NCBI GenBank assembly: GCA_037043015.1
Contig: CM073331.1
Coordinates: forward strand, 620,001-684,000
Length of the DNA stretch: 64,000 bases
Reading direction: 5' to 3'
From: Bryum argenteum
Lineage: Eukaryota > Streptophyta > Bryopsida > Bryales > Bryaceae
The notes beneath the pieces are model-generated. The model was given only the letters and a program-made list of their open reading frames with translations, was not told the origin of the DNA and searched no databases. Shown here in pieces: positions 28,311 to 61,509 of the stretch (position 1 is its first letter; each line of letters opens with the position of its first letter). The position numbers and the translations under genes are program-made.

Positions 28311-29111
28311 TTCAATGACTGCTTATTGTGAAGGAAATTTGAAGCTTCACATTTCTTGGGTATTTAGTTATTAAGAATCAATCAATCAATTAATAAATAA
28401 ATCAATGTATTAAGATTTCTTTTGCTTTAAAATTGATTTTAGAATTCGTGAATAACTTGAAGAACAAATGTAGAAATAACTCATATACACTCTAATCCCC
28501 TCATTGTCACACCTTAAGTGGCACGTCACTTATAATATCACATATTGATGTGTGACACATTTTGACCAATCAATGATACCCACCCTAAACCTCATTATTT
28601 CAATATACCCAAATCGTGCATCATGGATGTATTGGAGTGTCATTGATCTCAAATTTGGAATTGAAAATTTTTCAACTTCTTTGTTAGTTAGAAATTTTCC
28701 TTCTACTTTGTGATTCAGGGACGTAGAACTCATGGATTTAGGGTTTCCCACTTGCAGCGGGGAATTTGAATTGATACAATACAATCACTGATGTGCACTG
28801 TCGCTGTAGCTTCCTTGCAGTCGAAGCTTAGATTTTGGGTTCAATTCTTCTGTTAGGATACAACAATTTGATTTCCTCGTTCTAGCTCGTGCACCATTTG
28901 CAGCGGAGATCGAAGTTCGCAGCACCATTTGCAGCGGCAATTGAAGCTCGCAGCACCGATCCTTTTTCTTGAGGGGTTTAGGGTTTAAGGGTTGTTTGGG
29001 GAAGCTTCAACCTTGGGGTTTTCTTTTACGTTTCAATTCGCTTTCGCTTTCGAGGTTCCTGATATGTATATCCAGTTTATGCGCTTCTATGTAGATTTTA
29101 GTTGATCGGAG
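28311..29111. other. Upstream region of the SNAPC3 gene
   Basis: AT-rich to about 28800, then a region with GCACCATTTGCAGCGG repeated twice (28891-28935), probably 5' leader. No TATA element I would defend. Confidence 0.4.
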
Positions 29112-32305: not shown

Positions 32306-35300
32306 TTAGCTGACGTTACACTGCTGCAGCCACGGATGATCGTACTTGACATACTCCGCCCAGTAGGGTTTGAATTTTGCTAAGCCGATTTCTAACCACG
32401 GCTTCAAGTTCCCGTTGTAGTGGACAACTGCGGCATGTTCGATCAAAGTCTTCGGTACGTTGGGGTTATATCCAAGCCCCAATACATGCCACGACTTGTC
32501 GAGCGGGTGTGTTAACCCGTAGAACGTCGTCAGTCCAGGTGGTAGAGTCCCAAGCTTCCACAATGTTCTGTCCGCATTCTGCATCATACAAACAACATCC
32601 ACCTCTTGCTATCAGATCATTGCACTAGAGGACCTTTCATTGTTTCGGAAAGGACTCAGCAATGAACATAAAATGAATAAACTTAGAACCAGGCTCTATA
32701 CGATCTTTTGGAGTATGGCGAAATTTGATGTTGAGCACGACGCAAAATCACCAAAGGGACCAAGTCAATCAGCAAGTAGCAATCACTTACCAGGACTTGC
32801 CAGCTGTGGTAGATGGCGGTTATGTCGCGTTTCTTCCACTCCTTGAGATCAAACATGTTCATGCCGTAAGCCCAGCCACAAGCGGCAGGATCGAAGTTCC
32901 GTGCAATGTGTGGGTTCGAGAAATTCAGGTACTTGTCAAAACGATGGAAGCTTATTCCACAGGTCTCGACGGCTCCATTCACCATTCCTTGGAGATCTTC
33001 CGACCAGAGACCCGTGAGATCCTTCCTAACGACGACATCATCATCCAAGAAGAGCATTTTGTCCAACTTGGGGTACACTTCGGGCAGGTAGAATCTCAAG
33101 TGATTCAGCATCGACAGATACTTCGGATTCCTATACTTCAGATTGGAATTACCCCTCTCTCTTCCCGTCTTGAAGTAGTATGCCTTTGTGGACTCACCCT
33201 CAAGCTGCTTCAATATAGGACAGTAGGACGAGTTCAACCACTTGAACTCGTCCACATTCATGACCTCGATGGTGGCTGCGCCGGGAGGGTTGCCGAGAAA
33301 CCACATTCTCATCGCTCCATAGTTGAGAGAGTCTGTCACCACATGAATCACATGCTTGCTCGGATCCTGCAACCACATCCAGGACCAAATGAGTCACAGA
33401 ATCAGTTGGAACTCGCACAAAACTCGGTGCCTATGAACAAGAGATAGTGACCAAGCTGAGAGATTCATAATCGAATGCTTCTAATAATCAGAGTAGGCTT
33501 CTGAAAACAAGGACTACTGTTACCTTTGCATTTGTGACAGTGGAGTTGACAACAACGGCTGCTGCAAGCACGTTGTCCGAAAAGAGGGCATAGTGGTATA
33601 GTCTGGTATCCTCAAGATTTTGCTGATTTGGGAACTGACGTTCAGCAGGAGAGAGATCGCCGTAATCAACAGTCAACCGCATGGATACGCAATGTAGACC
33701 CTTGGGCATAGTCTTTGCAGCCAGTTGGCTCAAAAAGTTGCTCTGCTTCTTGAAACTTCGGAGCTGGTCTTCCGACGTCTGTAACATGGCCCTCAGCTTC
33801 TTGATGAGTGCTTTATCATCAGATTTAACAGTCCTAGCTTTTGCCAAAAGCTCTCCCAATGCCTTCATCTTCTTTTCAATCCTGCGTCTAACAATAAAAC
33901 TGCGGTGTCAAAACACAAAGGTTTGGTTTCAGAAAACCGCCCATATATTTGGATAACCTGAGGAGATTGCCCCGCGAAGCCGTATGCTGCATGTAACAGG
34001 TACTTAAAGCAAAGAAAAGTGGAAGACTTAAGATTCGTTCTAAAGAGTATTGATAGAAGAAAGCTGCGCACCCCTTTGGAAGCTCAGCATCGATACTGAC
34101 ATCCTCTAGCATTCTCATAATCTCTTTGATGCGGGCCTTTAGATCTTGAACAAGCCGAGCATCATTATGGGTTACCGCGATGTTTACGTAAGCTCGCGCC
34201 ATAATCAGCTGATCACGCATGATTCGCACAATGCTGTCCGAGCTAGTAGACATTTCTCTTGATCTCCAGATGCTGTGTGATTTCGTGATTGCATTATCCA
34301 CAACTTTAGCCCTTCTTATCGCCTCAGCTTCCAATTTCTTAGACTCCTTCTCATCCTGTTGAATGAGTTGTGTTCCTCTACTTTCAGATCGTTCTCGGCG
34401 CTCCTGCGTACCAAACCGCCCGAGTATTTATCAGCGCTCGTCCGGCCATGCATATAAGGATATGCGAGCAAGTATTCACTTGCTCAAGGTCAGTTGAGTG
34501 CAAGCACTCTTATACTGCACGAAAGATACGGTATACCAATTAACCTTGAGGTTTGAGGTTTGAATACTTGCAATTGCAAAATGAAATCTACACCAATGTT
34601 GTTTCAACCGCTCACCTTCCTTGCAATTTTGGCAGCAGAGTTACTGCTGGTGTTTGTGCTTTCCAGATTATCATCATCTGTTAACACCACATTGAACACG
34701 CATTAACAACGCCTCATTATTATCTCAACACTCCTTCAGATAGAGGAAAGGCTTCTACGTTCGTAGAAATATACACACGCCATTGTGTGCTTGAAGATGG
34801 AATCGAGAGGTACGTCTTGCAAGGATCTCGAGATTTCAGGATTTAAAAAAAATAGTTAACAGGGAAAGTTCTTGATTTTACCTGCCGCCAAGCTTCCATC
34901 TGAGTCTCCACCCTCGTCCTCAGGCTCAGTTTCATCCGTGTCCTCGAGTTCCTCAGCTTGAGAATCCGAAACAGCCAAACGTGAGGAATTGGAACTTTCA
35001 TCATCGACGTCCACAGTTGTCTGTTCCTTATGTTCAGTCTCAACTACCTCGCGATGCTCATTCGATTCTTTCCGACAATCAGCGTCAGTTTCTTCGCAGC
35101 TGCCATCTTCAGAACCTTCTCCTAATTTTCGATTCTCAACAACCTGTACCTCAGGATCTGTCCTACTTGATTGAACAGCATCTCCCCGTATCCAAGACGA
35201 AGACAAGTCATTACGGCCATTCAAGTTCAGAGGCCCGTCGTCTTCGTGCTTTGCGTTCAAGAGGTTTCGCACCTAACCAAAGCAGACACCTCCTACTCCG

Positions 35301-41670: not shown

Positions 41671-43725
41671 ACTTTCATAAATTTGCGTGATGAGACGTTT
41701 GCTAGGTTGGACGCCCTCAATCGCACGTGCCATAAGCCACGATTACTTTTTAGCACGTCACGGTAAAGTCAACATTCGGTACGATGTCGTGACACATTGC
41801 AATCGTGACAAGACGCTATTGTGTTGGAAATGGCCTCGGTCACAATAGAATAGACAACCATGGGTATTTTTGAAGCTACAATATTGCGTCATAATAAAGT
41901 GAAATAAACAAATAAATAATATTGTTATGGAAATACCATAAAATTAAAAAACTTAATTTGGGGAGAAGAATTTCATATTATTCTTTTTCAAGAAAACAAA
42001 GAAATTATATATTTAAATCTGATCTATATATCAGAGGTATTGATAGAGAATCATAATGTTATGTCTTTTTAAGAAACCAAACTTCATTCGAGCGACTTTA
42101 ACTTTCCCTTCTACATTTTTGGAGCAAATAACATAATTTTATAGATATAAAGCTTCTGTAGCATACAAGTATGAGCTTAGGATGGATGGGGGAGGAAAAT
42201 GCAAGGTTTGAAATATTAAGGTCTCTTAACTCCTAAAGCTCTTTTAGTTCCTGACTATTCTTACAAGCTGAATAGGCTTTTTGTTGTCTGGAGTAGGGCA
42301 CATTAAAATGTTAAAAATAATAATTTTCCCCAAGATTTTTATTAGGTGTTCCCCATAGTAGTGATACTACAAGGTGTCTGCAACACATTGCAAAGTCAAA
42401 TTCCAATTTTGGAGTTCTTAATGCAAATTTTGGTTTAACCACCCTAGGCGAGCAAATAAAACTCCTTTATTCTTAGAATTTTCTATATTTAGAAAATTTT
42501 CACTAGCAAATCACTATTTGAGTTTCAAGGGGTCCCTAGTCATTAATTTTATAAGGGAAGCCTTCAAATTTTATAAGAGCAAGCTTCAAAGTTTTTAGAA
42601 ATTTCATTAAATAAATGTGCACATACTTTGGATGTTACGTTATTGCATATGATAAAGAGTCAACCGTCAACTTTATATCACTGACTAAAAATAGGCTTTT
42701 GTAAGATATTGTGCTTAGAAGTCTATAACCAGTTAGTCTAGAAAGAAATATGCACATATTTCCGGAAGTGCATACAGGTAAAAAATCTCAGTTTTGACAT
42801 TTCAAGCTTCATAAACACATAAGAAAATTTAGGAGTCCATCCGAAGTCGGCTTTTTGAGATTTTGGGCAGCCTAGGTAAAGGGTCTGATTTTGGTATTTT
42901 GAATAACAATTTGATGTGAGTGTAGAAATAAATATTAGTTGTATGGGGTAAAATTTGCAATGTCAAATTCCAATTATTGAGTCTTTTAGGACAATCTTTG
43001 GGTTGCAAGCTTAAGTCGGGCATTATACATTTTGTTTTTTTATTGATTTAAAGATATGTTCACGGTCAAATCATTATCCTTTCTACTAAAAAACCCAACT
43101 TAAAATTTTTACAATTTTAACATTTCTCAAAAACAATGGTGGCGAATTCCTACACTCTATACACACTGGCCTCAAATAGGGTTAGAGTTCTTTGTTCTTC
43201 TTCTCTTGCACTCCATTAGGTCTACTTAAACTCTCTTTGAAATTCTACTAGGCTTCTACCGTCAATTGCTTATCAAAACTGTCATCTATAATAATTTACT
43301 CTAGTCTCATTAAAATCCAACGAGGAAAGAATTAACCAACATTAACTAACAACACACACCAATGATTATCATTTGCAAGATGGATGAGAAATCTACAATT
43401 CTCTGTTACACACTATCTATCCTAGCCAAAAGTAGTAAAATATAACCTTCTCGCCAAATGAACACAGATTCCAACCATGATAGATTACAAAAAAGAGATG
43501 ATGCTCAAAAAAGTCACATTGCATGTTCCTAGTCAATAAGTTATGTCCCATGGACATACCATGAAGTTGAATATTCACGCCAATCCTATATTCATGGAGT
43601 GCAAGAGAAGAGAAAGTATCCCCAATCCTATATTCACGTCAATTCTTACCAGTCTAGTATTCTTCTTCTTCTTTCCTAAACAATAACCATGTTGGCAATG
43701 TAAAATACAGACACAAGTCACCCAA
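41671..43725. other. AT-rich intergenic sequence
   Basis: No gene, RNA or element recognised by eye. Confidence 0.35.
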
Positions 43726-43976
43726 TTTGAAGTAGTCCCTTGAAGACAGCTGATTTGAAGTAGTCCCTTGAAGACAGCTGATTTGAAGTAGTCCCTTGAA
43801 GACAGCTGATTTGAAGTAGTCCCTTGAAGACAGCTGATTTGAAGTAGTCCCTTGAAGACAGCTGATTTGAAGTAGTCCCTTGAAGACAGCTGATTTGAAG
43901 TAGTCCCTTGAAGACACCTCATTTGAAGTAGTCTCTTGAAGACACCTGATTTGAAGTAGTCCCTTGAAGACTGCAT
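43726..43976 (+). repeat. 28-bp minisatellite, nine copies
   Basis: Unit TTTGAAGTAGTCCCTTGAAG plus ACAGCTGA, exact 28-bp period from 43726 to the copy at 43950. The first copies are identical; the last three carry substitutions (ACACCT for ACAGCT, TCTC for TCCC). Because 28 is not a multiple of three, all frames translate into the same interleaved peptide, which creates long false ORFs on the minus strand. Confidence 0.97.
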
Positions 43977-44633
43977 GCAAAGTACAAAAAGAATTCTAAG
44001 AGAACTCGTGACTGAGACAATCGACAACGTGAATGGTCAATGGAAACGAGGAGATGAATGTAAAGGAGCAGAGCATTGGATGAGAGGGAGGGGCTGGGGA
44101 GGGGGGCATAGCTGAGCGAGCTGGAGAGACGAGGGATGCGTTGGAAAGAAGAGATGCTTGGCATGCGCCTCAGCCCAGCCCAGCCCAGCCAGCGACCTTG
44201 CTGCTTCACCACTTTGCAACACTAGTGAGCCGGAAGGGAAGTCCGCCAGGGAGGGAGTATCAAGCTTTCGCCCCGTTTGTCACTTCCCTTTTGCTCCCCG
44301 CGCCGGAGGTGGCCACCCGGAGCGCCCGCATCCTAGGGTTGGCCATTGAGCGGACACACTAGTGTTGGGGTCGCCGCTCCCTCACTCCCCAGGTCAGATT
44401 TCATCATTCCCCGAATTTTGAGCCGCTAGGGTTTGGAACCCACAAGACGCTTTCACGATCCCCGGACAGGATTAGGGTAGGAATCTCGACAGAATGGCAG
44501 CCAGGTTTTGGGTTTCGCAGGATTGAGAATGTTGCCATCGAGGTGGAAACGATGGGGCACAGAATGGATTGATCGACGGGGTGTGTAGGGAATGTGTTGT
44601 ATTGGAGCGGAGTTGTGAAGGGAGGGATTGAAG
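43977..44633. other. Promoter and 5' leader region of PP2A B'-1
   Basis: GC-rich from about 44080, with CAGCCCAGCC reiterated at 44170-44190. No match to the 5' flanks of the other two B' copies. No defensible TATA element. Confidence 0.4.
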
Positions 44634-46745
44634 ATGGTTTTCAAGTTGAAGCATGTGATGCAGCGTGGGAAGAAGGGGAAGGGTGATGAGAAATCGGACG
44701 TTGCGCCGGTGCCGACTGCGTCGTCATCCGGGCCTGCTGCGCAGGCTCTCGCTAAAGGTGCGGGGAATAATGGTGTGAGAGCACCGGCCGGGGTGCCAGC
44801 TGCTGCGGCCGGAGCCCCCGCGCCCAAGGGGGCAGTGCAGGCACCGTCGAAGGTGGTGGCGGGGAAGATGCCGAATGGGAGCTTCGAAGCTCTCCCGTCG
44901 TTCCGCGATGTGCCGACGTCGGACCGGCAGAACTTGTTCGCGCGGAAACTGGCGCTCTGTTGCTATACGTTTGATTTTACGGATCCGACGAAGAACGTGA
45001 AGGAGAAGGAGATCAAGCGGCAGACGCTGCTGGAGCTTGTGGACTATGTGACGTCGGGGAGTGGGAAGTTCACGGAGGCCGTGTTCGAGGATATTACGAA
45101 GATGCTGGCGGCGAACTTGTTTCGGACTCTGCCACCGTCGTCGCATGAGAACGCGGGGTCAGATAATTTTGATCCCGAGGAGGAGGAGCCGACGATGGAG
45201 CCGGCGTGGCCGCACCTGCAGATCGTGTACGAGTTTCTGTTGCGGTACGTGGTGAGCTCGGAGACGGACGCGAAGCTGGCGAAGCGGTACATTGATCATG
45301 GGTTCGTGCTGCGGCTGCTGGATTTGTTTGATAGTGAGGACCCGCGGGAGCGGGAGTACCTGAAGACGATATTGCACCGGATCTATGGGAAGTTCATGGT
45401 GCACAGGCCGTTCATCCGGAAGGCGATCAACAACATCTTCTACCGGTTCATCTTCGAGACGGAGAAGCACAACGGAGTGGCGGAGCTGCTGGAGATATTG
45501 GGGAGTATTATAAATGGGTTTGCGCTGCCGCTGAAGGAGGAGCACAAGATGTTTCTGGTGCGGGCGTTGATCCCGCTGCACAAGCCGAAGTGCGTGTCGA
45601 TGTACCACCAGCAGCTGTCGTACTGCATCATCCAGTTCGTGGAGAAGGACTTCAAGCTGGCGGACGTGGTGATACGGGGGCTGCTGCGGTACTGGCCGGT
45701 GACGAACAGCCAGAAGGAGGTGCTGTTTCTTGGGGAGCTGGAGGAGGTGCTGGAGGCGACACAGAGCGCGGAGTTCCAGCGGTGCATGGTACCGCTGTTC
45801 CGGCAGATCGGGCGGTGTTTGAACAGCTCGCACTTCCAGGTTAGTGGGTGGGGAGCTTGCAGTGAATGCGAAGTGGGAATCGGGACTGCTGGTTGGGGAG
45901 TGTATGTTGTGACAGTTACGGTGGGAATTGGGGTTGGTCGAGGGCTCTATGGATTTGGGAAGATAAGTGGCGTCTGCTTGGATGGGCTTCTGGCCTGCAG
46001 GCAGTAGGTGCATTGCGTGGTGTCGTGGAATTGAGTGCCATCGACTGCTAATCCTTCTGTTAGGCTTTGATTAGTGGGGGTTGTGTTGAATTCGGCGGCG
46101 TAAGTATTGAAACGTGTGCGGGCTGTTTGAATGCACTCATGATGGGCTAGGCAATCTGTGATCGTCATCTCTGAGAATGTGACCAAGACTCGGACATGAA
46201 ATGATCGTTTGGGTCGTTCTGGCATGGGTGAACGGGGGGTTTAGGTTCTTGGTGTAGTCCATATGGCGAGGTAGGGTGTGGGTTGGTAGTGGAGTTTAAT
46301 CTGACGGAAGGTTGTGTGTGGTATCGTGGTACAGGTCGCAGAGCGGGCTCTATTCCTGTGGAACAACGACCACATTGTGAGTCTGGTGGCCCAGAATCGG
46401 CAGGTGGTGCTGCCGATCATCTTCCCTGCGTTGGAGAGGAACACGCGGAGTCACTGGAATCAGGCCGTGCACGGGCTGACGCTGAACGTACGGAAGATGT
46501 TTCTGGAGATGGACCAGGAGCTGTTCCAAGAGTGCCAACGCAAGTACCAGGACGACGAAGCGAAGGCGAAGGGAGTTGAAGAGACGCGAGAGTTGACATG
46601 GAAGCGGCTGGAGGCGGCCGGGAACCAGAGGAGTAACTCGAGGTTTGGCAATAGTTTGTCACCGTCGGACGGTGTGATGAACACGAGCACGGTCCCCAAC
46701 AAGATAGCACCAGCACTCGGGCAGACTACTGTGTTTGAAAAGTAG
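44634..46745 (+). CDS. PP2A regulatory subunit B' (B56), copy B'-1
   Basis: Exons 44634-45839 and 46335-46745; intron GTTAGT...ACAG, phase 0; 538 residues. The B56 HEAT-like repeat core runs from about residue 85 to 510, with typical plant segments [60 protein letters not shown] and [14 protein letters not shown] before the intron, then [20 protein letters not shown] and [13 protein letters not shown]' subunits give protein phosphatase 2A its substrate choice and bind LxxIxE motifs. The N-terminal Ala/Pro/Gly-rich tail is variable between copies. It is the left arm of an inverted duplication with B'-2. Strong G/C at third codon positions creates long antisense frames, which are not genes. Confidence 0.96.
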
Positions 46746-47791
46746 TTTGACTCCCCCTTTTCTCCAGCGTGAGATGTATGATTGTCAGGAGCGAGGCACA
46801 GGCTTCGAGCTTCTGTGCAGTTCCCGTCTTCTACTCCTCCCTCGAGAGGGGTAGGGTAGTCCGGCCCCCGGTTCATCCAGACGAGGGCTATCCCTCGGAT
46901 CCAGTTGCAGATAATTACAAGTGCCAGGGTCGCGGCCGATCTCGAATCGTGCCGACGCAGTGGCGGTGTCGGATGCGGGACTGGGCAAGGATGGGGTGGG
47001 GATAGGATTGGGGATTAATGAGACTGGGGGGTCACAGCAGGAAGCAGAGAGCGTCTGTGCTAGGAGACCTGCAGATTTCAGTATGGCGGTAATATCCAAG
47101 TTGTAACCTTTTCCCTTCCTCTTCCAACATTTTTTTCTTTTTTCTTCAGTTATCTGCTCCTGTTGTAGGGGTGAATGGCGCTCCTGTTCTGTGTAGGGGT
47201 GAAAGGCGAAGTTGAGATTGTAAGATCAGTAGGTTGATTGGGGGTTTTGAGCAGGGCATCTGCTTCTTTTTTTTATTGTTCGGTGTAAAGAGACAGCTTA
47301 GGACGAGACCCGTGAGAGGGTGTATGTGGATGTGCATTTGGGTGTTGGTGAATCAGGCGAGTATGGGAGATGTCTATCTCCTGCAATGGGAGGGCATGCA
47401 ATGGACAGGGACTTGGAAGTAAAGTATTGCAGTTGCAGAGAGAGAGAGTGATGGAGGTGACAGGTGGTGAGCAAGAATGTTGGAGCCGTAGAGAGAGAGG
47501 TGCAGTAGTATACATTTAGTTTGTTATTGATCAATTTTCTGGTGCCACGGTGAGAGGCGGTGCTTTGTGTCATGCTGGTGATACACAGCCGTCCCGCATG
47601 GGACATTGAAGTGCTTGATTAGGTCGCAGTGCATGACTGTAAGACCGTGGGCTTGGTGAGAGCATCCTGAGCTGACGGTGAAATGTTTTGGCCGACGTTT
47701 ACATGATAAGCCTGACGCTGGCAGGAGGCTTTTGGTTATCGTGAGGCGTTCTCTTGTGAATACTGGTGCGTGGTGTTATATCTCGATTCAC
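44634..47791 (+). repeat. Left arm of a 3.15-kb inverted duplication
   Basis: Covers B'-1 coding sequence, intron and about 1 kb of 3' flank; homologous in inverse orientation to 49962-53107. The homology begins at the start codon: the 5' flanks do not match. It ends at CTCGATTCAC (47782-47791), whose inverse is at 49962-49971. Confidence 0.88.
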
Positions 47792-48149
47792 TTGGTGGCA
47801 AGTGATAGGGTGTTTGATGCATTTCGCAGAGCTTGTTACCTTCACTCGTTAACGATTAATCCAGTGGTTTCCTAGACCTTGCAATTTATAAGGAATTAAT
47901 TGGGTAGCATGGTGGTTGTTACTTATGAGAGGCTTACTGATTTTTATGAGTCCAATCTATGATATATTGAATGGCTACTAATGGTACCACAGTGCCAATG
48001 CCACTTAAATGCATGGGATTGCGCTGGATCAGTACTTGCTTTTGGGTGAAATCCATTGAGGTGCAGTGTCAGTTCTGCAATGCAATTTAACTTGCTGCTC
48101 GCTTTTCTTCTCTTTCGAGATTACATCTAAAACCCCTAAATTCGACTAT
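47792..48149. other. Spacer between inverted arms, left part
   Basis: No gene seen. A short word GCTTGCTTTTGGGTGA-like at about 48035-48051 has an inverted counterpart near 49900, suggesting that the duplicated block was once slightly longer. Confidence 0.35.
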
Positions 48150-48515
48150 AGGCCATATTCGTTTGGATGTTTGGTCAGCCTCTCACTTATTATTTTGGCT
48201 CGCATGAAGTTGGGACTTTTTGGAAGTTGGAAAGTCTGTCCGTACCTTTGAAGTCGCTTCAAAATTCCTCTTACTTTAGGAGATATACGGTCTAGGTTTG
48301 AAAACTGCTCAAACTGCAGTATATGCTTATATATTCTCAAAATCTGCCCAATATCATTTATATTGCAAAAACCTACAAAAATTCACCTAAAATTGAGATT
48401 TTGCTTTCGTTTGAGGTCAGCTCTTCGTTCAAGTAACTAAGGTTCCAAGGGTGTGACCCTACCGTTCCGATTACGCCCTTTTTTATTGTCAAAGACCAAA
48501 GACCACCCTTTGTGG
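48150..48515 (+). repeat. Dispersed repeat, copy 2 (copy 1 at 2150-2520)
   Basis: Same order of blocks as copy 1 (GGTCAGCCT, ATGAAGTTG, GCTTCAAAATTCCTC, TTCTCAAAATCTGCCCA, GTCAAAGAC), same orientation. Non-coding. Confidence 0.6.
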
Positions 48516-49180
48516 GTGGATTTTAACATACCTCCATCGATCTTGTTTCATTACTATCAATCTAGATAAACACCATTTTTTTAACTCTAATAGAGCAGCA
48601 TGAAAGTTGGAGATTCTAGTATGAGAGAACCGCACCAATCCTAAACAAGAAGCAGGCAATGCAATTTGCAAGGAGAGGCTTGAGTAACCATTGAAAGCAT
48701 GTTTTTTTGAGATGTAGCAGCCTCTAAAAGTCGTCAAGATTGTCTAGTTGATGCTACCCAACGAGCGATTACTAAAAGACAAAGTGGTTACTATGGGTAT
48801 ACAGGATCGTAAGCCAATACAACTCACTCAGGGGAATTCTCGTCACTCAAAGACCCTATTGGCGCAGTGGTTGTTCAATTGTACAAAGGAGAATTCTCGT
48901 CATCGACCGCATGAACATGGGATGTCCATTGTGTTAGCCGAGAGATCGTATTATTGTGCAAAGGTCGACACACGCAAACCCACAATTCAAAAATGTGGTA
49001 CAACCATAAGAAAGTAGGCAACATTTCACCATTAGTATCTCGACTTAAGCTGATGTAGAGGCTTTCGCAAGATCAGACGTCCATGACCGGGGCTAGGCTA
49101 TGTGCACAAACATTTGCATGAACGACAATGCTTTGTCATTCACTTCAATGAACACTTAGATGGACAACTCGTTTATTAAA
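48516..49180. other. Spacer between inverted arms, middle part
   Basis: An 89-codon plus frame at 48748-49017 has no recognised similarity. GGAGAATTCTCGTCA or near variants occur twice (48831-48846, 48888-48903). Nothing else. Confidence 0.3.
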
Positions 49181-49397
49181 GGTGGACGGCAAAATGGTAA
49201 ATCAAATAACTAGCCTCCTTTTGCTGCCAAATGGGGTGGACGGCAAAATGGTAAATCAAATAACTAGCCTCCTTTTGCTGTCAAATGGGGTGAACGGCAA
49301 AATGGTAAATCAAATAACTAGCCTCCTTTTGCTGTCAAATGGGGTGGACGGCAAAATGGTATATCAAATAACTAGCCTCCTTTTGCTATCAAATGGG
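49181..49397 (+). repeat. 54-bp minisatellite, four copies
   Basis: Unit starts GTGGACGGCAAAATGGTAAA and is repeated four times with one to three changes per copy. As 54 is a multiple of three, one plus frame (49182-49448) encodes an 18-residue repeat, VDGKMVNQITSLLLLSNG. There is no evidence of a longer gene around it. Confidence 0.95.
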
Positions 49398-49961
49398 AAT
49401 CACAAGCTCACTCTGCTATATATTCTGGACAACACCACCTACCCTTGATAGCCGCACAATAGAGACTTGATCAACTTATTTTGTGCTAGCTACGGATTAT
49501 GCTACAACCCATTCCCACTCCTCTACGTGCAAGTTTATCAGAGGTAAGGTAAAGAACCAATTGAACCAAAGGCGGTTGTTGTTGCACTCACAAGTTCGCA
49601 CTACTACAATACACACAGCAGATACGGTCAGGACATTATGGTGAGCAATTCGCTTGACATACATCGCTACATTTCGTGCTCTTTTTTTCCAGCAGTCCGA
49701 TCCATAGAGATGAACAATCACTATATCGTAACCTAAAATGGAATACAATTCTGAAAAGGGAACATTTAAAATCAATGACCTGCAAGCTGTACAAGAGAGA
49801 GGCAGCGGCAAGCACGTCACGCAAATGCAGTATTATCCGTACTTGTTACATAATATGAGCGAGGTGTGCATATCGACAAATCGACACACATCACATCACC
49901 CAAAAGCAAGCATCAATGCAGCACAATCGCAAGCACACATGTGCCAAGTCTATAAAGTGTC
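49398..49961. other. Spacer between inverted arms, right part
   Basis: No gene or element seen. Confidence 0.3.
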
Positions 49962-52900
49962 GTGAATCGAGATTTAACATCATGCACCAGTATTCACAGA
50001 AATACACCACACAATACCAAAAGCCTCCTGGGTCAGGCTCATCGTGTAAACGTCGGCCAAAACATTTTACCGTCGCCTCGGGATGCTCTCACCAAGCCCA
50101 CGGTCTTACGGTCTTGCCCTGCAACCTAATCAAGCACATCAATGTCCATGCGGGAGGGCTGTGTTCACCACATGACACAAAGCACCGTCTCTCACCGTGG
50201 CACCAGAAAATTGATCAATAACAAACTAAATGTATACTAAAGCCCTACTACTGCACCTCTCTCTCTCTCTCAACGGCTCCAACATTCTTGCTCACCACCT
50301 GTCACCTCCACTCTCTCTCTCTCTTTCTCTCTCTCAAACTGCTTCTGGACCTCAACCGTACCAACCCAGAAGTCCCCGTCCATTGCATGCCCTCCCACTT
50401 CAGGAGATAGACACCTCCTATACTCGCCAATATCTCCTGATTCACAAATGAACCATCCTTCCACTTCACCAACACCCAAATGCACATGTACATGCACCCT
50501 CTCACGGATCTGGTCCAAAGCTGTCTCTTTACACCAAACAATAAATAAAAGCAGATGCCCTGCTCAAAACCCCCAATCACCTACTGATCTTACAATCTCT
50601 ACTCAGCTCAACCCCGCCTTTCACCCCTACACAGAACAGGAACAGATAATGGAAGAAGAAAAAAATGTTGGAAGAAAAAAGTTACAACTTTGGATATTAC
50701 CGCCATACTGAAATCTGCAGGTCCCCTAGCACAGACGCTCTCTGCTCCTGCTGTGACCCCCAATCTCAATAATCCCCAATCCTATCCACCCCATCCTTGC
50801 CCAGTCCCACATCCGACAGCGCCATTGCGTCGGCACGATTCCAAATCGTGCCGCCACCCTAGCCCTTGTACTCATCTGCAACTGGATCCAAGGATCGCCC
50901 TCGTCAGGATGAACCGGGAGCCGAACTACCCTACCCCTCTCGAAGGGGTAGAAGACGGGAACTGCACAGAAGCCCGAGCCAAATGTCACACTCCTGACAA
51001 TCATACATCTCACGCTGGAGACAACGAGCAGACGAACTACTTCTCGAGCACTGCACTCTGCCCGAGTGCTGGGGACGCGCTCCCCGCTATCTTGTTGGTC
51101 ACACCGTCCAACGGTGCAAAACTGTTGCCCATACTCGAGTTACTCCTCTTATTCCCAGCCGCCTCCAGCCGTTTCCACGTCATTTCCCGCATCTCTTCCA
51201 CCCCTTTTGCCTTGGCTTCGTCGTCCTGGTACTTGCGTTGGCATTCCTGGAACAGCTCCTGGTCCATCTCCAGGAACATCTTCCGCACGTTCAGCGTCAG
51301 CCCGTGCACGGCCTGATTCCAGTGACTCCGCGTATTCCTCTCCAACGCAGGAAAGATGATCGGCAGCACTACCTGTCGATTCTGGGCCACCAGACTCACG
51401 ATGTGGTCGTTGTTCCACAGGAATAGTGCCCGCTCTGCGACCTGAACCACAACACAACACACATGCTTTCAGTCAGAAAAAAACCCCATTTCCAATCTCC
51501 CCCTGGCCCCTGCCCTCTGACAGATTACAAACGATCAATTAATGTCCCGAGTCTCCGCCACATTCACAGCGTTGACGAGTACAGACTGCCTCGCCCATCA
51601 TGAGTGCACTCAAACAGACCGCCAGCGATCCAATACTCACGCCACCGACTTCAAAAACCCTCCCAGTACACATCAGAGCCCACAGGAAGGATAAGCACTA
51701 AATAGCACCCAATTCTACAACACCACGTAATGCACCCACTACCTGCAGGTCAAAGAACAACAATGCAGAAGCCCCTTAACAACTCGACTCCACCATGCCC
51801 TTAACCAACCCCAATTCCCACCGTAACTGTCACAACATACACTCTCAACCAGCATGCCTGATTCCCACTTCGCATTCACTGCAAGCCTCCCATCCACGCA
51901 CCTGGAAGTGAGAGCTGTTCAGACACCGCCCGATCTGCCGGAACAGCGGCACCATGCACCGCTGGAACTCCGCGCTCTGTGTCGCCTCCAGCACCTCCTC
52001 CAGCTCCCCAAGAAACAGCACCTCCTTCTGGCTGTTCGTCACCGGCCAGTACCGCAGCAGCCCCCGTATCACCACGTCCGCCAGCTTGAAGTCCTTCTCC
52101 ACGAACTGGATGATGCAGTACGACAGCTGCTGGTGGTACATCGACACGCACTTCGGCTTGTGCAGCGGGATCAACGCCCGCACCAGAAACATCTTGTGCT
52201 CCTCCTTCAGCGGCAGCGCAAACCCATTTATAATACTCCCCAATATCTCCAGCAGCTCCGCCACTCCGTTGTGCTTCTCCGTCTCGAAGATGAACCGGTA
52301 GAAGATGTTGTTGATCGCCTTCCGGATGAACGGCCTGTGCACCATGAACTTCCCGTAGATCCGGTGCAATATCGTCTTCAGATACTCCCGCTCCCGCGGG
52401 TCCTCACTATCAAACAAATCCAGCAGCCGCAGCACGAACCCATGATCAATGTACCGCTTCGCCAGCTTCGCGTCCGTCTCCGAGCTCACCACGTACCGCA
52501 ACAGAAACTCGTACACGATCTGCAGGTGCGGCCACGCCGGCTCCATCGTCGGCTCCTCCTCCTCCGGGTCGAAGGTATCCGACCCCGCGTTCTCATGCGA
52601 CGACGGAGGCAGCGACCTAAACAAGTTCGCCGCCAACATCTTCGTAATATCCTCGAACACCGCCTCCGTGAACTTCCCACTCCCCGACGTCACGTAGTCC
52701 ACCAGCTCCAGCAGTGTCTGCCGCTTGATCTCCTTCTCCTTCACGTCCTTCGTCGGATCCGTAAAGTCAAACGTATAGCAGCACAACGCCAGCTTCCGCG
52801 CGAACAAGTTCTGCCGGTCCGAAGTCGGTACATCACGGAACGACGGCAGGGCTTCGAAGCTCCCATTCGGCATCTTCTCCGCCACCACTGCCCCGCTCCG

Positions 52901-53107
52901 CCCCGCCGGTGCCTGCACTGCCCCCTTCGGCGGGGGAGCTCCAGCAGCAGCAGCTGTCACCGCCCTCGCGCCATTGTTCCCTGCGACCTTGGCCTGCCCA
53001 GGCGCAGGGCCGGAAGATGACGCAGCCGGCACCGGCGCGGCGTCCGATTTCTCATCGCCCTTGCCCTTCTTCCCGCGCTGCATCACATGCTTCAGCTTGA
53101 AAACCAT
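49962..53107 (-). repeat. Right arm of the 3.15-kb inverted duplication
   Basis: Inverse counterpart of 44634-47791. The 3' flank homology includes the (GA)-rich tract and the GTGGGCTTGGTGAGAGCATC and TGTTTTGGCCGACGTTTACA blocks in inverse orientation. Confidence 0.88.
51037..53107 (-). CDS. PP2A regulatory subunit B' (B56), copy B'-2
   Basis: Exons 53107-51902 and 51441-51037; intron GTGCGT...TTCAG, phase 0; 536 residues with the same B56 core as its neighbours. Exon 1 resembles B'-3 rather than its inverted partner: [28 protein letters not shown] and the N-terminal [12 protein letters not shown] with GRSGAVVA are shared with B'-3, against [16 protein letters not shown] and SDNFD in B'-1. 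The intron after its first seven bases, exon 2 ([33 protein letters not shown]) and the 3' flank follow B'-1. It therefore looks like a mosaic made by gene conversion. Frame complete, no damage seen. Confidence 0.96.
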
Positions 53108-54249
53108 CTCTCCCTGCTCTGACCACTTTCCGCAACCCTAAAAGCGCACTCTCTTGTGATGCAGTATCAGCATCTGCGAAGTATCAGCGTTTGCGAATGA
53201 TCCCAGTCCTGCCCCAGTGTGCGTTCGGGATCTGCCAACGATCCCTGTGATTCACACTCCTTTCCTCATGCATTCGGATTGCTGTCGGCATGGGCTTATA
53301 CTGCATCACTCTCCCTCCTACCTCGTCTCACTTTCTTATCCCGAGTGACAGGAACGGCAATGAGTATTTTCCAATGCCCTTCGTCCACTACTATCTCCTG
53401 CTCCAAAAATACATCAATTTCAGTCCAACCACAGTCCAAAAGCCTACCTCTACGCTTCTCCACTCCGCCCGCTCTCGCCAAGCGCGCTTCCGGCAACATG
53501 CCACTTCAAGAACTATTTCAAACCAAAAACCCTATCCTTTGGCGATGAAGAGCTCACCTGAGCATGACGCAGCTATCGCTCTGAATTTGGACGAACGAAT
53601 CAGCAATCAGCTCCTCTGAAGCTTTCGGGCTACTCCATTTCCAGCTTCTCCAAAAGGAAGGAGGAGAAGCAATTATTCTGCGTTCCAATGAGCACTTGGT
53701 GCAATGAGAGAGCTCGGCACGCAAGGCCTCTCTGATAAGAAGCTGATTATTGCATAGTCATTAGTAGCCTTCTAGTCTACCTACTCCTCTTGCAGATGCT
53801 GCTTGAGCGCGGCCGCCATGGCCGTCTTGGTCGTCGCGAATGAAGCAACGATGGCGGAGAAACTTCGGGCAACATTGGCGGAGTCCATATGCTTTCTTCG
53901 TCGTCCTCGCTACGACGTCACCCCCTTTTGACGGTATCGACGGCTCAGATGCTGTCGAGCGTCTCATCCATCGGTCACTAGTTTTGTTATTTTCGGGTAC
54001 GAAGAGGGAATCCTGTACTATCTTGATTTTAAACTTCTTGGGGTCAATAGGAACACCACCGTCCTTTTCGAGGGGGAATATGGAGAAACTTGTTATATGT
54101 CAACCAATTCGAATTTGTGTGAGATATGTTTTGGTTATCTTAACATATTCTTTGAACCAATCAAACATTATTTCTATATCAACTTGACTTGGCTTGAGTT
54201 GTTATTTAGAGCAATTAAACGCGATTGTTTGTCTTGATATATTTAGTGA
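53108..54249. other. 5' flank of PP2A B'-2
   Basis: Leader and promoter region. A GC-rich patch at about 53760-53990 (GGCCGCCATGGCCGTC) stands out, but its frames have no similarity. Otherwise nothing. Confidence 0.35.
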
Positions 54250-57150
54250 GTATTGCATATTGATACTTTTCTTCTCATGAATTGAATAAAAAAAAGTTTT
54301 TTACAAAACAATATTTTTTATTTAAAAAAATAAATTTTAATTATAATATTACTCTTATGTTTATTTGAACTTATATGACTTTCTTATATTATGTATAAAA
54401 TATTTGATATATCAATGAATGGATACTTGGTTCTTCAAAGAATATCTGTAAAACCATTAATAAACTATGTATCTTAGGAATTGTGTTACTCTCCTACTTC
54501 AAAACTTATGGTTTAAATTGATTTTCATAAACGTCCATTTGTAACAAGTTCTTTCAATATAAATTTCTTTATCATAACATATTTATATGAATCAGCTTTT
54601 ATTGTATCAAGAGCAGTATGCTTTCACTTGTTTTAAATGAGTTGTTGGTTAATTTTCTCATTTTGGTAGGAAGAGAGAATCTAATGTTATTTTTAATACA
54701 TCTCTTACGAGGATCGATATAAAGATCATGAGTATGTATGAATAGATTCAAATTTGTGTGTTTGATTTTTTGTTAACTTACAAATTTCTTAAAACTATTT
54801 TGACATCTCCTTAATATGTCAATATTATATTTTATTTGAGCGATCGCATTTGGCCGCATGAGGTATTGTGATAACCATCAAGTTATGTTTAATTTTTCAT
54901 CAATTTGAATATCACAATGTCTAAGCGTTATCATCCTTTTAACCTCCACTACTATTTATTTTTGAAGTTGTTTTTTGATGAAGATGTTTATACACTTCTC
55001 ATCTAATATCACACATCATAAGAGCTCAAAAAATCATCGATATATCAAAAAGAACCAAAAACCCTCACGTCACAATACTCAAATGCATCTTCTACAACTT
55101 GGCCTTAGCGAATACGTTGGATTTAATTTTACAGCCATTATAATCAAAGTACAGTCATGGCTGTATTTAAGCCCTACTTTTCTAAGATGTCAAGGAAGTG
55201 AGTCTATAAATTGTAAAATTTTTGCACCTATAAGTTGGAATTGATTCCTTATAGAGGAAGGGCCCTTATTTAAGTTTTTCTATTTTATTTTTTCTTCTTG
55301 TGCTGTAAAAAATTATTTTCACATTACATTTATCTATATTATTTCCTTCAAGTTCACCAAAGTTATTTCCAACTGCAGATGTGCTAATAAAAATTTCTAT
55401 GCAAATATTACTTTTATGAAATTTGTGTGAAGATTACTTTTGTAAGATATAGTATGTTCCAAAATGGTTAATATATGCTTTACCACTTTACTTATTGGAG
55501 TATTTAAATATATATCAAGCACATTAAAAGTAAATGATAACATTAAAATACATCCAACTCTTACAATCAAATTTAATTTTAGTATGTATGAACGAAAAAT
55601 TTAACATCCTAGAGTATTTCTTAAGAGCAAATATAGGGTTGATTGTGGTATATTTAATTTATAAATATAATTTAAGATTTTATTCTTATATATGAAGAAA
55701 TGATTCATACTACAATATTATCATATGAAAATATTTGTTTAAATTGGACTATTGTTGGTCCAATACAACATGGCTAATGTAACTTTCCATTATGGTTTTA
55801 AATTTGGTATGTATTAATATCTATTGATTTAAAATAGTGACATGAATACTAAAACATCATCATAGTGTTTTTTATAAATTTACACACTCAATATTTTACT
55901 CCAGATTTATTTGTAATGTGATATCGTAATACCATTTATAACCAAATTTGTCATTTACCAGAACATGATACATAGTTTCTCTATTACAAAAACTCAACTT
56001 TCATATTTTACTTTTATTTTAAAAAATAAGAAAAATATTTAAAATACACATGCACAATAACTTCCATTCAACAATATTGTTATAAGCGCATGTATGTTAC
56101 ATTCTCTACTCAATCCAATATTCTTTACTATATTTGTTTTAGTCACTTTTACTCTCATATAGAACATCGTTGCTATAAGACAAAAAACAATGGTTGTATT
56201 AAAGCTTTTCACTAGTGTTTAAATTTACCAATTGCTTTGTGTAGAATTCTAAAGTTTTTATTATCTAGTCTATATTGGCTACTTTATAAGCGAGTTAATT
56301 TCACTACAAAATTTCTATGAATGATTACAAACATAATACAAAGTAACATATGTTGTTATGTTTGAGCATATTATTGTATTTTAATTGAAACTAGTATCTA
56401 TTGGAGTAATTTTTGTAAAATGCGAAAAGATTTCCTTTGTATTGTTAAATAGTTGGATTTGAAAACAGATAAAAATTTACACTATAATCATATCCGTTTG
56501 GACTACAAGGTATTAAATTTTTTTCTTTTTTTTTCTTTTTTTTTCAAATTCAACAACTTAGGCACGATGTACATAGGAAATCAAGCTTCACATCGGGTTG
56601 GACGACGATGAGTTTTTCTTCAACATGATTTTTTCATATTTTTAATTATAAGAGATGGAGCAATCACATAGAGAGGGTTTTGCCCTTTTTTCCATCCCAT
56701 ATATGGCTTGACTCTCATGTAAAGCATTTTCTACTTTATGTACCATTTAATACTTACTACTCCTACCCTTTTCTCCAATTAGAATATGTCAATTTCACTT
56801 ATTAAATTAAATTTAGTTTCTAAAATTTTTTGTGATATACTTTGTTGGTTTTTTGACTTGTGGTTTCCATTCACAAGGTAACATCTTACTTAATATTCAA
56901 AAGTTCCCATTTGTGTGTTTTGTAAATTTCTCAAATTATTTTGTGAACAAAATATTCGGAAAGTGCATGTTACCTATCTATCGGTAATATGAAAAAGTTA
57001 TCAAATGGCTTCATACAACCTGTTGATAACATATACTTCAGACAACACCATAATCACACAAAGATTCTATCATAAAACAAACAACCACCTTAATGATATA
57101 AAAAACTCTGCACAATATCGTATATTATCTTCCTACTTCAGAGTCTTACA
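54250..57150. other. Strongly AT-rich spacer
   Basis: About 2.9 kb rich in A/T runs, with no reading frame of note and no repeat recognised. The change at both edges is abrupt against the GC-rich PP2A genes on either side. Confidence 0.6.
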
Positions 57151-57974
57151 CTTGAATTAAAAGTCCTCTACAATACAGTCATTTGATGATCAAAATTCGA
57201 ATGAAGAGACTAAAACTCACACTATATTTGTGGTATTTTACAATCTTGTAGGTATGATGCAGTACAAAGGGGGGCCAACAACCTTGCAAGTAATGAGGCA
57301 ACGGCGACCACAAGATAAGACGCATGGCAAGATCTGGGCCGTTGGAAAGCTCCGCTCGCCTTTCTCTTCCTCCCCCTCCTCTCCCTCGTTGGCAATACAC
57401 TTCGCTGTTGCTGCTTCCGCTTGCTGCTTTTTGCTTTGAAGAAGAAGCAGCAGCAAAGAAATCTGGCCGGGGCAGGGGCAGGGCAAGGTCGAGGAGGATA
57501 TTCAGTAAGCGGGAAGAAGAGGGCCACTCTTGCTCTGCTTCGGAAACCGAGCCGAGCCGAGTCGAGTCGAGTCGTGGTTTAAGTGTGGCTTGTTTCAGCT
57601 TTGCTTTGTTGGCTAATTCCCGCGCGCGCGGCATCCCCACTCAATTTTGGAGCGCGCTGCTTTCAGGTACGTTTTTTAATTTATTCTTCGAGCTCTTTGC
57701 TTTTGAGCTTTTGTTAGGGTTTTGCCGCACTTGTGTGAGCATAGAGGATCGGTCACTTGCAAGCGCGGGCTCGGTCACGTGCTCTGAAATTAGGATTTTT
57801 GTTGTTGGACCAGGGAGCGTGATGGGAGAGCGTGATGGTCGCCGTGGTCGGGATGATCGTCGGTGAGGTGACATTGCCTTTCAGGGAATGTGGTGGGAGC
57901 CATTTCGATTGGACACATTGGATAAAAGTGTCACGAGGACATCGGTGGAATTTTAGGTTTCGGGAACAAGAGAG
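57151..57974. other. Promoter and 5' leader of PP2A B'-3, with a possible UTR intron
   Basis: GAGCC/GAGTC units are reiterated at 57548-57573. CTTTCAGGTACG at about 57660 could be a donor and TTTTAGGTTTCG at about 57950 an acceptor, giving an intron of some 290 bp ahead of the start codon; this is only a guess. A 180-codon plus frame here is not conserved in the other copies. Confidence 0.4.
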
Positions 57975-59798
57975 ATGGTCTTCAAGCTGAAGCACGTGAT
58001 GCAGCGCGGGAAGAAGGGCAAGGGCGATGAGAAATCGGACGCCGCGCCGGTGGTGCCCGCTGCGTCGGCATCTGGGCCTGCCAAGGGCGCGGGGAACAAT
58101 GGCGCGAGGGCGGTGACAGCTGCTGCTGCTGGAGCTCCCGCGCCGAAGGGGGCAGTGCAGGCACAGGCACCGGCGGGGCGAAGCGGGGCAGTGGTGGCGG
58201 GGAAGATGCCGAATGGGAGCTTCGAAGCTCTGCCGTCGTTCCGTGATGTACCGACTTCGGACCGGCAGAACTTGTTCGCGCGGAAGCTGGCGCTGTGCTG
58301 CTATACGTTTGATTTTACGGATCCGACGAAGGACGTGAAGGAGAAGGAGATCAAGCGGCAGACGCTGCTGGAGCTGGTGGACTATGTGACGTCGGGGAGT
58401 GGGAAGTTCACGGAGGCGGTGTTTGAGGATATTACGAAGATGCTGGCGGCGAACTTGTTTAGGTCGCTGCCTCCGTCGTCGCACGAGAACGCGGGGTCGG
58501 ATACCTTCGACCCGGAGGAGGAGGAGCCGACGATGGAGCCGGCGTGGCCGCACCTGCAGATCGTGTACGAGTTTCTGTTGCGGTACGTGGTGAGCTCGGA
58601 GACGGACGCGAAGCTGGCGAAGCGGTACATTGATCATGGGTTCGTGCTGCGGCTGCTGGATTTGTTTGATAGTGAGGACCCGCGGGAGCGGGAGTATCTG
58701 AAGACGATATTGCACCGGATCTACGGGAAGTTCATGGTGCACAGGCCGTTCATCCGGAAGGCGATCAACAACATCTTCTACCGGTTCATCTTCGAGACGG
58801 AGAAGCACAACGGAGTGGCGGAGCTGCTGGAGATATTGGGGAGTATTATAAATGGGTTTGCGCTGCCGCTGAAGGAGGAGCACAAGATGTTTCTGGTGCG
58901 GGCGTTGATCCCGCTGCACAAGCCGAAGTGCGTGTCGATGTACCACCAGCAGCTGTCGTACTGCATCATCCAGTTCGTGGAGAAGGACTTCAAGCTGGCG
59001 GACGTGGTGATACGGGGGCTGCTGCGGTACTGGCCGGTGACGAACAGCCAGAAGGAGGTGCTGTTTCTTGGGGAGCTGGAGGAGGTGCTGGAGGCGACAC
59101 AGAGCGCGGAGTTCCAGCGGTGCATGGTACCGCTGTTCCGGCAGATCGGGCGGTGTCTGAACAGCTCTCACTTCCAGGTGCGTGAGTGGCAGTGGGATTT
59201 GAATCTAGGTTACAGCTGTAGGTTTGGATCTTGGGGTTTCTATGAGTAATTTGAGGTTCTCTTGAGTCACTTTTTCTGAATTTAGGCAATTGCACGAGCT
59301 GCTAGTGGCATGGGGATGTGGATTTGGATGGTGTTGCGCGTGCTTTTCAGTGCTTGGCTGGTGAACCTGATGCCTGTTGACACGCTGGTTGTTTTGACTG
59401 CCCAGGTTGCGGAGCGTGCGCTGTTTTTGTGGAACAATGATCACATTGTGAGCCTGGTGGCTCAGAATCGGCAGGTGGTACTGCCGTTAATCTTTGCTGC
59501 ATTAGAACGGAATACTAGGAATCATTGGAATCAGGCTGTGCATGGGTTGACGCTGAATGTGCGTAAAATGTTCCTCGAGATGGACCAAGAGCTGTTCCAA
59601 GAATGCCAACGCAAATATCAAGAAGACGAAGCGAAAGCGCAAGGCTTAGAAGAAAAGCGTGAACAAACATGGAAACGGCTTGAGGCAGCTGGAGAACCTC
59701 GTCTTGATGGAATACTGGTCTCTCAATCCGGCCAATCTAATGCTGCTCCTGCTGGCGGACCTGCAATGCAGGGGCAAACAGCAGTTTTCGCGAATTAG
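57975..59798 (+). CDS. PP2A regulatory subunit B' (B56), copy B'-3
   Basis: Exons 57975-59177 and 59406-59798; intron GTGCGT...CCCAG, phase 0; 531 residues. The exon 1 core is almost identical in DNA to B'-1 (about four differences over 45181-45839 versus 58519-59177), yet exon 2 differs at about 25 of its first 132 bases, mostly synonymous, and the C-terminal tail ([15 protein letters not shown], ending TAVFAN) is different. The intron is half as long and not alignable apart from the donor. Function as for the other copies: substrate-selecting subunit of PP2A holoenzymes. The 3' flank retains words of the other copies, for example GTAAGATCAGTAGGT, so the gene belongs to the same older duplication. 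Confidence 0.96.
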
Positions 59799-61509
59799 CC
59801 TTTTTACCCGGACTTATATTTGGTTATCGAGGTGTACGAATTACGAGAGACTAATGCGTTTTCAGGGGAGCCTTCTCAAGCAAAATCGCAGGATCGGCGA
59901 AGCGAGGGGATTACCCGAATATTTCAAGGTCGGTAATTACTGAAGCAGACAGGCCTCCAGCAGACTACATGTGGTATCTCCAGATTACATGTGGTATCTC
60001 CAGATTACATGTGGTATTTCTCCCCAAGTTGTTCCTCCCTGTTCTCACATATTTTCTGTTGTTTTTCTCTTTCCTCTCTTGTGTAGGTATACATTCCAGA
60101 GGTTTAGAACAGGGCAGACTGTAAGATCAGTAGGTGTTTGGTTTGAACAGGGTGTCTGCCTTCATTGTTTGGTGTACAGAGACAGCGTAGAATTGTCCAG
60201 ACGGTGCCTTGGGACGGCTTTATCTCATTGTGCATTTGGTATACGTCAGCCCGACGGTTCGTATCACTAATTCATATATAGGAGAAGAGAGATATTGGAC
60301 ACATACTGATCCGAAGTTATTTCGAGGTCCTACAGTAAGTCAATGACAGGAAGAATGCTAGAGATTGTAAGCTCTGGTGTTAATTCCAGCTGATCGAAGG
60401 GAGGTGCCATCCACCCGATTACTTCATACTTTCCGAGCAATCTTCTCCCGTTACTCGAGTCGGAAACATCTCTTTTGGCTGGTCAATCTCCTGACCCTTA
60501 TCTGGATTCCGTGGTCAATTCCCTGATGGTTGAATACAACGCTGTCTTTTCCGGAGGTTGTCTTTCCTTACTAAATTCGAAAGATCCTCACAGAACGGAA
60601 GTGGTTATTGAACGTGAAGTTTGTTCGTCTCTGTATGAATGCGGTCTTCTTGTGGTTTGTGAACAGAAAAGAGCTTGTTCCTGACGAGTATATTAGGACT
60701 GGTGCCGAATAATCGTGTACACTATTCTAGTCCTTATCTCTGTTTCTAGCCCGTTCGGTTGATTACTGTGTCGTTGACTTCTCATGCGAGCGATATAATG
60801 AGTGTTACGAAGCATCGGCCCTTCGACAATTGATTTTAGTACTATCAAAGAGGGCGATAGAAACGTCTGACCGATAGGAAGTTTTTAAGGTATTTTGCAG
60901 TTCTCCTTCACATATACATCTGTGAAATTGTGCATATGTTGGCGTGAAATCAGCCTTTAGATGTATCCCACCACAAGAAGGATTTCACCGTTAACCAACC
61001 TTTTATATGTCATGACTTGTGTGATTACTTGTTGTTCCAATGGGTGGGAGTTTAGTTCAAACTAAAGCAACATTCCAAGTTGATGTGTTGGAATCTGTGC
61101 ACTTGTCTGAAAGCTACTAGAGCATGGCCACTCATGCTCTTGATTTGTCTCGAAAACAATGAGTTAAAACCAAGAGCCGAGAATCCAATCTTACTCCCAT
61201 CTGTACCCCCATCGTGCATGAGCTCCTACTGAGCTGAAGCATGCAATTCCCACCGAACTGCTCCCGTTCCCCACTTGAGCTGCTCTCCTTCTGGTTGTCA
61301 CTCCCTCAACTTCCTAGCGTTTTGGCTGTCGTTTTCGCAACGTTCTGGATGTTGTTTTCGCAGCTCCACTTTTGCAGCAATCTCATTTCGCTTAGCTTCG
61401 TCCGCTATGTCAGAAGACGGAATAGATACTTACGAAATAGAAACTTATGAAAGAGACATTCTGTGCACTTTGGGAGATCATGCCGCAAGGCAATTTTAAG
61501 TGGGCACTG
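59799..61509. other. 3' flank of PP2A B'-3 and intergenic sequence
   Basis: CCAGATTACATGTGGTAT(C/T)T occurs as two full and one partial tandem copy at about 59967-60017. GTAAGATCAGTAGG (60121-60134) and the following TTTGAACAGGGTGTCTGC-like block match the 3' flanks of the other B' copies. Short frames at 60475-60684 and 61241-61499 have no recognised similarity. Confidence 0.4.

Follow-up and report, generated by a model that had tools for sequence, protein, structure and literature searches.

Gene conversion acting on exon 1 very probably homogenises three clustered, predicted PP2A B' genes of Bryum argenteum

Three predicted PP2A B' (B56) regulatory subunit genes lie within 15.2 kb of one another in the window analysed here (64,000 nucleotides, C11:620001-684000, from one 258.8-Mb assembly of 25 contigs, whose contig C12 gave a match to the RuBisCO large subunit, as expected of a plant), and the comparison of their exons leads us to consider it highly probable that these clustered genes undergo repeated interlocus (ectopic) gene conversion acting on exon 1. 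The outcome would be proteins with a common B56 core and copy-specific N- and C-terminal tails.

The genes, B1 (+ strand), B2 (- strand) and B3 (+ strand), are arranged tail to tail (B1/B2) and head to head (B2/B3); they extend from the start codon of B1 at 44634 to the final base of the B3 stop codon at 59798, exactly where an earlier note on this DNA had placed them. All three frames are open and are interrupted at the equivalent position by a GT-AG intron, the splice sites being predicted from the sequence. We assign the genes to B56 by domain, the B56 HEAT-repeat domain PF01603 scoring above cut-off in both exons of each gene; in addition, the human B56 gamma chain matched exon 1 of B3 plus 24 read-through codons with an E-value of 4e-131. 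B1 consists of exon 1 (44634..45839, an open frame ending in a GT donor; B56 match 2.8e-152), an intron (45840..46334) and exon 2 (46335..46745; 2.1e-33). On the opposite strand, B2 has exon 1 at 51902..53107 (6.7e-152), its intron at 51442..51901 and exon 2 at 51037..51441 (7.9e-33), and in B3 the corresponding parts are exon 1 at 57975..59177 (3.8e-152), the intron at 59178..59405 and exon 2 at 59406..59798 (1.1e-32). A Pfam search of the genome identified at least one further B56 gene, on C4, with an identical junction; this copy is distant from the clustered genes (synonymous p-distance, ps, 0.72-0.89 to B1-B3 in the regions measured).

Over the last 659 bases of exon 1 we counted five differing sites between B1 and B2, four between B1 and B3, and one between B2 and B3, and the first 132 bases of exon 2 hold 6, 26 and 27, respectively. 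The estimates by eye in the earlier note, about 4 and about 25 for B1/B3 with nearly all of the latter synonymous, were thus close to the mark (3 of 44 residues are changed in that part of exon 2). Nei-Gojobori Ks for the last 241 codons of exon 1 was 0.083 (B1/B2), 0.083 (B1/B3) and 0.012 (B2/B3); for the first 97 codons of exon 2 it was 0.42, saturated and 3.0, with ps values of 0.32, 0.77 and 0.74, so that the synonymous sites of B3 exon 2 are at or near saturation against both other copies. In a 614-base core (exon 1 positions 544-1157, i.e., 45177..45790 in B1) only two sites vary among the three copies. When we compared degenerate codons encoding the same residue (458 usable, 370 in exon 1 and 88 in exon 2, after dropping gapped or residue-differing codons), 39/370 in exon 1 versus 49/88 in exon 2 differed between B1 and B3 (Fisher P = 1.5e-18) and 16/370 versus 48/88 between B2 and B3 (P = 5e-27); for B1/B2 the counts were 42/370 and 18/88 (P = 0.03). 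These counts describe a tract far closer at synonymous sites than the remainder of the same genes, as interlocus conversion would produce. Exon 1 itself is not uniform, Ks over its first 85 alignment columns being 0.57 (B1/B3) and 0.17 (B2/B3).

Near-identity of this kind could in principle come from the reads, if those of exon 1 had been mixed among the copies during assembly or polishing. The exact shared runs of 404-644 bases (the longest between B2 and B3) exceed the length of short reads, and short-read polishing could therefore have erased a few true differences; however, polishing would presuppose near-identity to begin with, all frames are open, in-frame indels persist in the N-terminal part, and each exon 1 stands between its own flanks in a window without N. 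We regard an artefact as the least probable of the explanations considered.

It is also very improbable, on indirect arguments, that the synonymous sites of exon 1 were frozen with no exchange at all, through constraint on the DNA itself (an antisense gene, a regulatory element or extreme codon bias). Exon 1 third positions are indeed strongly biased (G 0.61-0.63) and long antisense frames are present (397 aa in B2 and 483 aa in B3), but the codon usage of exon 1 alone predicts that about 36% of codons would differ at saturation, and only 4-11% did so over exon 1, which led us to reject codon bias as the sole cause. Antisense coding was rejected as the source of the low Ks as well, since, across the nine antisense frames of B1-B3, shuffling synonymous codons 500 times gave an open stretch at least as long as the longest real one in 6-100% of cases. 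The C4 paralogue has an exon 1 close to saturation relative to B1, B2 and B3, and constraint predicts neither the coincidence of the tract edge with the loss of homology nor the switch of closest partner that are described below.

With no position preset, the best single breakpoint for both pairs that include B3 fell at codon 403, where exon 2 begins (lnLR 39.1 for B1/B3 and 58.7 for B2/B3, versus maxima of 8.9 and 8.5 in 2,000 permutations), i.e., the step at the exon 1/intron border that the earlier note had predicted is there. For B1/B2 the best single breakpoint was codon 182 (lnLR 11.1; permutation maximum 10.0). A two-breakpoint fit placed cold tracts, in B1 numbering, at codons 182-386 (B1/B2), 182-396 (B1/B3) and 172-403 (B2/B3), within which 1.0%, 1.0% and 0.4% of codons differ; the exon 1 core is thus cold between B1 and B2 as well (0.010 versus 0.200-0.237 on both sides).

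The edge common to the B3 pairs lies where noncoding homology is lost. Beyond the splice donor the exact match with B3 runs for 2 bases in B1 and 7 in B2, and upstream of the start codon it stops within 2-5 bases in every pair. The 1.5 kb upstream of the start codons gave no match in any pair at an E-value of 1e-3, and a search for displaced 5' homology between the 10 kb upstream of B1 and the B2/B3 intergenic stretch gave none at 1e-4. By BLAST the B3 intron had no match to the B1 and B2 introns at 1e-3, whereas the latter two align with each other at 79% over 372 columns; the statement that the introns cannot be aligned therefore holds for B1/B3 and B2/B3 and fails for B1/B2. Similarly, B1 and B2 agree at 81% along 1,124 aligned columns of their 3' flanks (46746..47791 in B1; 49962..51036, - strand, in B2), which were delimited by alignment and a DNA-level genome search; the 3' flank of B3 retains short stretches of lesser similarity (136 columns at 70% to B1 and 261 columns at 66% to B2). 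Conversion limited to exon 1, as first suggested, accordingly describes the pairs with B3, but B1/B2 similarity continues into the intron (49 of its first 60 bases are equal). The 1.2-kb exon 1 is the longest block that is still homologous among all three copies. One observation counts against conversion as we have framed it: the 5' edge between B1 and B2 is sharp although their introns and 3' flanks align.

The earlier argument that a single duplication date cannot yield both values is borne out, B3 having an unalignable intron next to an exon 1 almost the same as in B2. As noncoding DNA of B1 and B2 still aligns at an exon 2 Ks of 0.44 and the B3 intron does not, B3 appears to have split off before the date that its exon 1 implies. 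Another way to such a gene would be a chimera, in which non-homologous repair fused a recent duplicate of a B1/B2-like exon 1 with an old B' exon 2 and conversion did not recur. The two exons of B3 are unlike in GC3 (337/401 in exon 1 versus 59/131 in exon 2, P = 2e-17), and a single recent join could account for the pairs with B3. Against this, the match spans only from 2-5 bases before the start codon to 2-7 past the donor, and a random join would be expected to bring untranslated or intron DNA along; moreover, the core of exon 1 is younger than the N-terminal part, and it is cold between B1 and B2 too, so that one event would be insufficient. We think a chimera very unlikely, if marginally less so than constraint. 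A fast-evolving exon 2 in B3 was considered as the cause of the step and ruled out, because at codon positions 1 and 2 of the first 97 codons of exon 2, with the C4 copy as outgroup, we found three changes unique to B3 versus seven in B1 or B2.

By shared synonymous codons the closest partner switches between tract and flank, in keeping with repeated conversion among the three copies, our preferred reading. Among the 48 variable synonymous codons of exon 1, 32 are shared by B2/B3, nine by B1/B3 and six by B1/B2, with one shared by no pair; among the 56 of exon 2, 38 are shared by B1/B2, eight by B2/B3 and seven by B1/B3, with three shared by none. Trees rooted with the C4 copy, a distant outgroup near saturation that roots them poorly, preferred (B2,B3) for exon 1 (AU 0.81; the others 0.26 and 0.22) and (B1,B2) for exon 2 (AU 0.85; the others 0.08 and 0.23), AU values that exclude no alternative tree. 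Within exon 1, its 3' part leaned another way, the (B1,B3) tree rooted in this manner being best by 0.7 lnL; AU gave 0.03 for each of the other two, which KH and SH (0.17) do not exclude. A run-length test from our own script in the style of GENECONV, with uniformity along the gene as its null, gave P <= 5e-5 for all three pairs when the C4 copy was included and was weak when it was left out (P = 0.11 for B1/B2, 0.93 for B1/B3 and 0.02 for B2/B3).

We suggest the following course of events. Conversion requires a long homologous stretch, and the 1.2-kb exon 1 would supply one; recombination intermediates may arise within it and stop where the 5' flank or the intron no longer matches, and exon 1 would consequently be copied repeatedly among B1, B2 and B3. 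Conversion would maintain the similarity of exon 1 and similarity would in turn permit conversion, a feedback of which exon 2 would have lost both halves: the 0.4-kb exon 2 of B3, with its silent sites saturated, presumably escaped long ago behind a non-homologous intron. Several events of differing age would be involved, the latest between B2 and B3 in the 3'-terminal two thirds of exon 1, one with B1 slightly before it, and those in the N-terminal part of exon 1 earlier still. Their direction was probably, if weakly so, from a B1/B2-like sequence to B3, because B3 exon 1 is GC3-rich like those of B1 and B2 and its exon 2 is not; since G rises more than C in this enrichment, B3 as the recipient is only hinted at.

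We sought comparable patterns in HSP70-family genes of the same genome, hand-picked by eye (four close pairs, a lead rather than a survey). Two of the four, on C3 and C2, have a low-divergence coding tract beside an unmatched intron or flank. The C3 pair, H3a and H3b, lies 90 kb apart in inverted orientation, and Ks falls from 0.60 in the 213-bp exon 1 to 0.41, 0.26, 0.11, 0.10, 0.10 and 0.19 in six successive 90-codon segments of exon 2; the two introns gave no match at an E-value of 1e-3, and same-residue codons differed at 19/67 in exon 1 versus 57/523 in exon 2 (P = 3e-4). A third HSP70 gene on C3, 1.5 Mb off, is about as distant from H3a and H3b in exon 1 (Ks 0.64 and 0.60) as these are from each other and is much farther in exon 2 (0.96 and 0.86 overall). 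In the C2 pair H2a/H2c, Ks drops from 0.84 (codons 100-199) to 0.016 (codons 500-599) and 0.027 (the last 63 codons), and the match stops 11 bases beyond the stop codon, save for a 55-base patch farther on; the upstream comparison covers only 83-85 bases. The remaining pairs, H2b/H2c (99.9% alike) and one on C8 (98% over 2,333 columns), are alike throughout and uninformative on tract edges. From these cases we draw a tentative rule, to which we give rather less than an even chance, that in this genome conversion would end where noncoding homology has been lost, the long exons of linked genes being locked together and short exons behind diverged introns being freed. Its corollary, that tract ends settle on start codons, splice sites and stop codons and that exon length decides which segment diverges, we hold just as loosely. 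R-loops from the G-rich sense strand were entertained as a cause of conversion, and we did not build upon them because the third positions of the HSP70 genes are also G-rich (0.42-0.55).

Were conversion of exons a general feature of the genome, the turnover of introns would determine which segments of duplicated proteins diverge; here a phosphatase targeting subunit would be free in its tails and not in its core. Whole-gene trees and divergence dates would mislead for genes under conversion at the level of exons, and the cluster offers a clean natural test of where conversion stops, near-zero and saturated synonymous divergence meeting across one splice site. Separately, the idea that C11 is a liverwort V-like sex chromosome was dropped, as a single BBR/BPC match lay on C5 and the literature consulted gave no link.

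Among the matches listed in a literature search for B56 and gene conversion no title named conversion of B56 genes, and such work may be published elsewhere. Mosaic concerted evolution within genes is described for the mammalian pairs BMP8A/B, DDX19A/B and TUBG1/2 (PMC2720389), in which, as here, certain exons co-evolve while others diverge and the converted part is higher in GC3; however, the converted blocks of the mammalian pairs include introns and are proven by orthologues, whereas the B3 tract ends at the splice donor and is known from one genome only. In plants, RPL9B and RPL9C of Arabidopsis lyrata are linked paralogues with conversion and unalignable introns (PMC4679983), but their identical block begins 167 bp upstream and the B' block begins at the start codon, occupies most of a 1.2-kb exon and is found in three copies in both orientations. 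Like the clustered hsp70 genes of flies (PMC3071340), in which the coding sequence is homogenised, similarity decays outward and the 3'-UTRs have diverged, the B' genes are alike in coding sequence; the fly case rests on population data, and in B' the similarity ends at an intron within the gene. The coding parts of mammalian hsp70 clusters are homogenised as well (PMC5865164). Among bryophytes, conversion has been proposed to hold the hexokinase paralogues of Physcomitrella alike (PMC3045890), as we propose for B'; the hexokinase genes are dispersed and the argument is made from protein trees, whereas the B' genes form a local cluster with edges resolved to the base. Mosaic conversion is thus of a known kind, and in our judgement it is the sharpness of the B' pattern, with three copies in both orientations, that is unusual.

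All three PP2A B' (B56) genes of the cluster, B1, B2 and B3, have a strongly G-rich sense strand over window 44634-47791, 49962-53107 and 57975-59405, respectively, and this extended to their introns, which had sense-strand GC skews of 0.48, 0.48 and 0.36. At the third codon positions of exon 1 the frequency of G was 0.61-0.63 vs 0.20-0.22 for C, compared with third-position G frequencies of 0.27-0.39 in four other frames of the window. The further B56 paralogue on contig C4, our outgroup, lacked sense-strand G-richness, its intron having a skew of -0.30.

B1 and B2, the younger pair, are alike at ~80% in their introns and 3' flanks, yet their similarity likewise has its 5' edge at the start codon, as no match was found between the regions upstream of the two start codons (window 43134-44633 vs 53108-54607). 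In the 3' flank, one short segment can be recognised in all three genes (window 47215-47301, 50520-50598 and 60116-60190; 75-80% similarity) and is possibly a conserved 3'-UTR element. Tandem arrays of 28-bp and 54-bp units lie beside B1 (window 43659-44002) and between B1 and B2 (49127-49396), respectively. Elsewhere in the window, a Pfam scan of 10 of the 24 other frames listed identified matches in five: bHLH (5676-6803), Myb/SANT-like (16753-17973), DDE transposase (18631-19392), SNAPC3 (29106-30551) and glycosyltransferase family 8 (32683-33393).

Pieces of B' exon 1 with similarity to B3 were also identified on contigs C9 (3439-3521 and 5139-5176 of stretch L020) and C5 (4819-4901 of stretch L021). 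Pieces of 47 bp (98% identity to B3) and 27 bp (85-89%) are present on both contigs, contained in a 1.14-kb stretch that the two share at 99.6%, and a 38-bp piece (95%) is found on C9 only; these fragments look like the product of capture by a mobile element.

Among the HSP70-family genes that we examined on contig C2, H2b (stretch L059, C2:26856000-26858300) has almost the same sequence as H2c, which lies next to it in inverted orientation. The two differ by one base in length within the coding sequence, and the open frame is shorter in H2b (623 vs 691 codons between stops), which could reflect either a real pseudogene or an assembly error.
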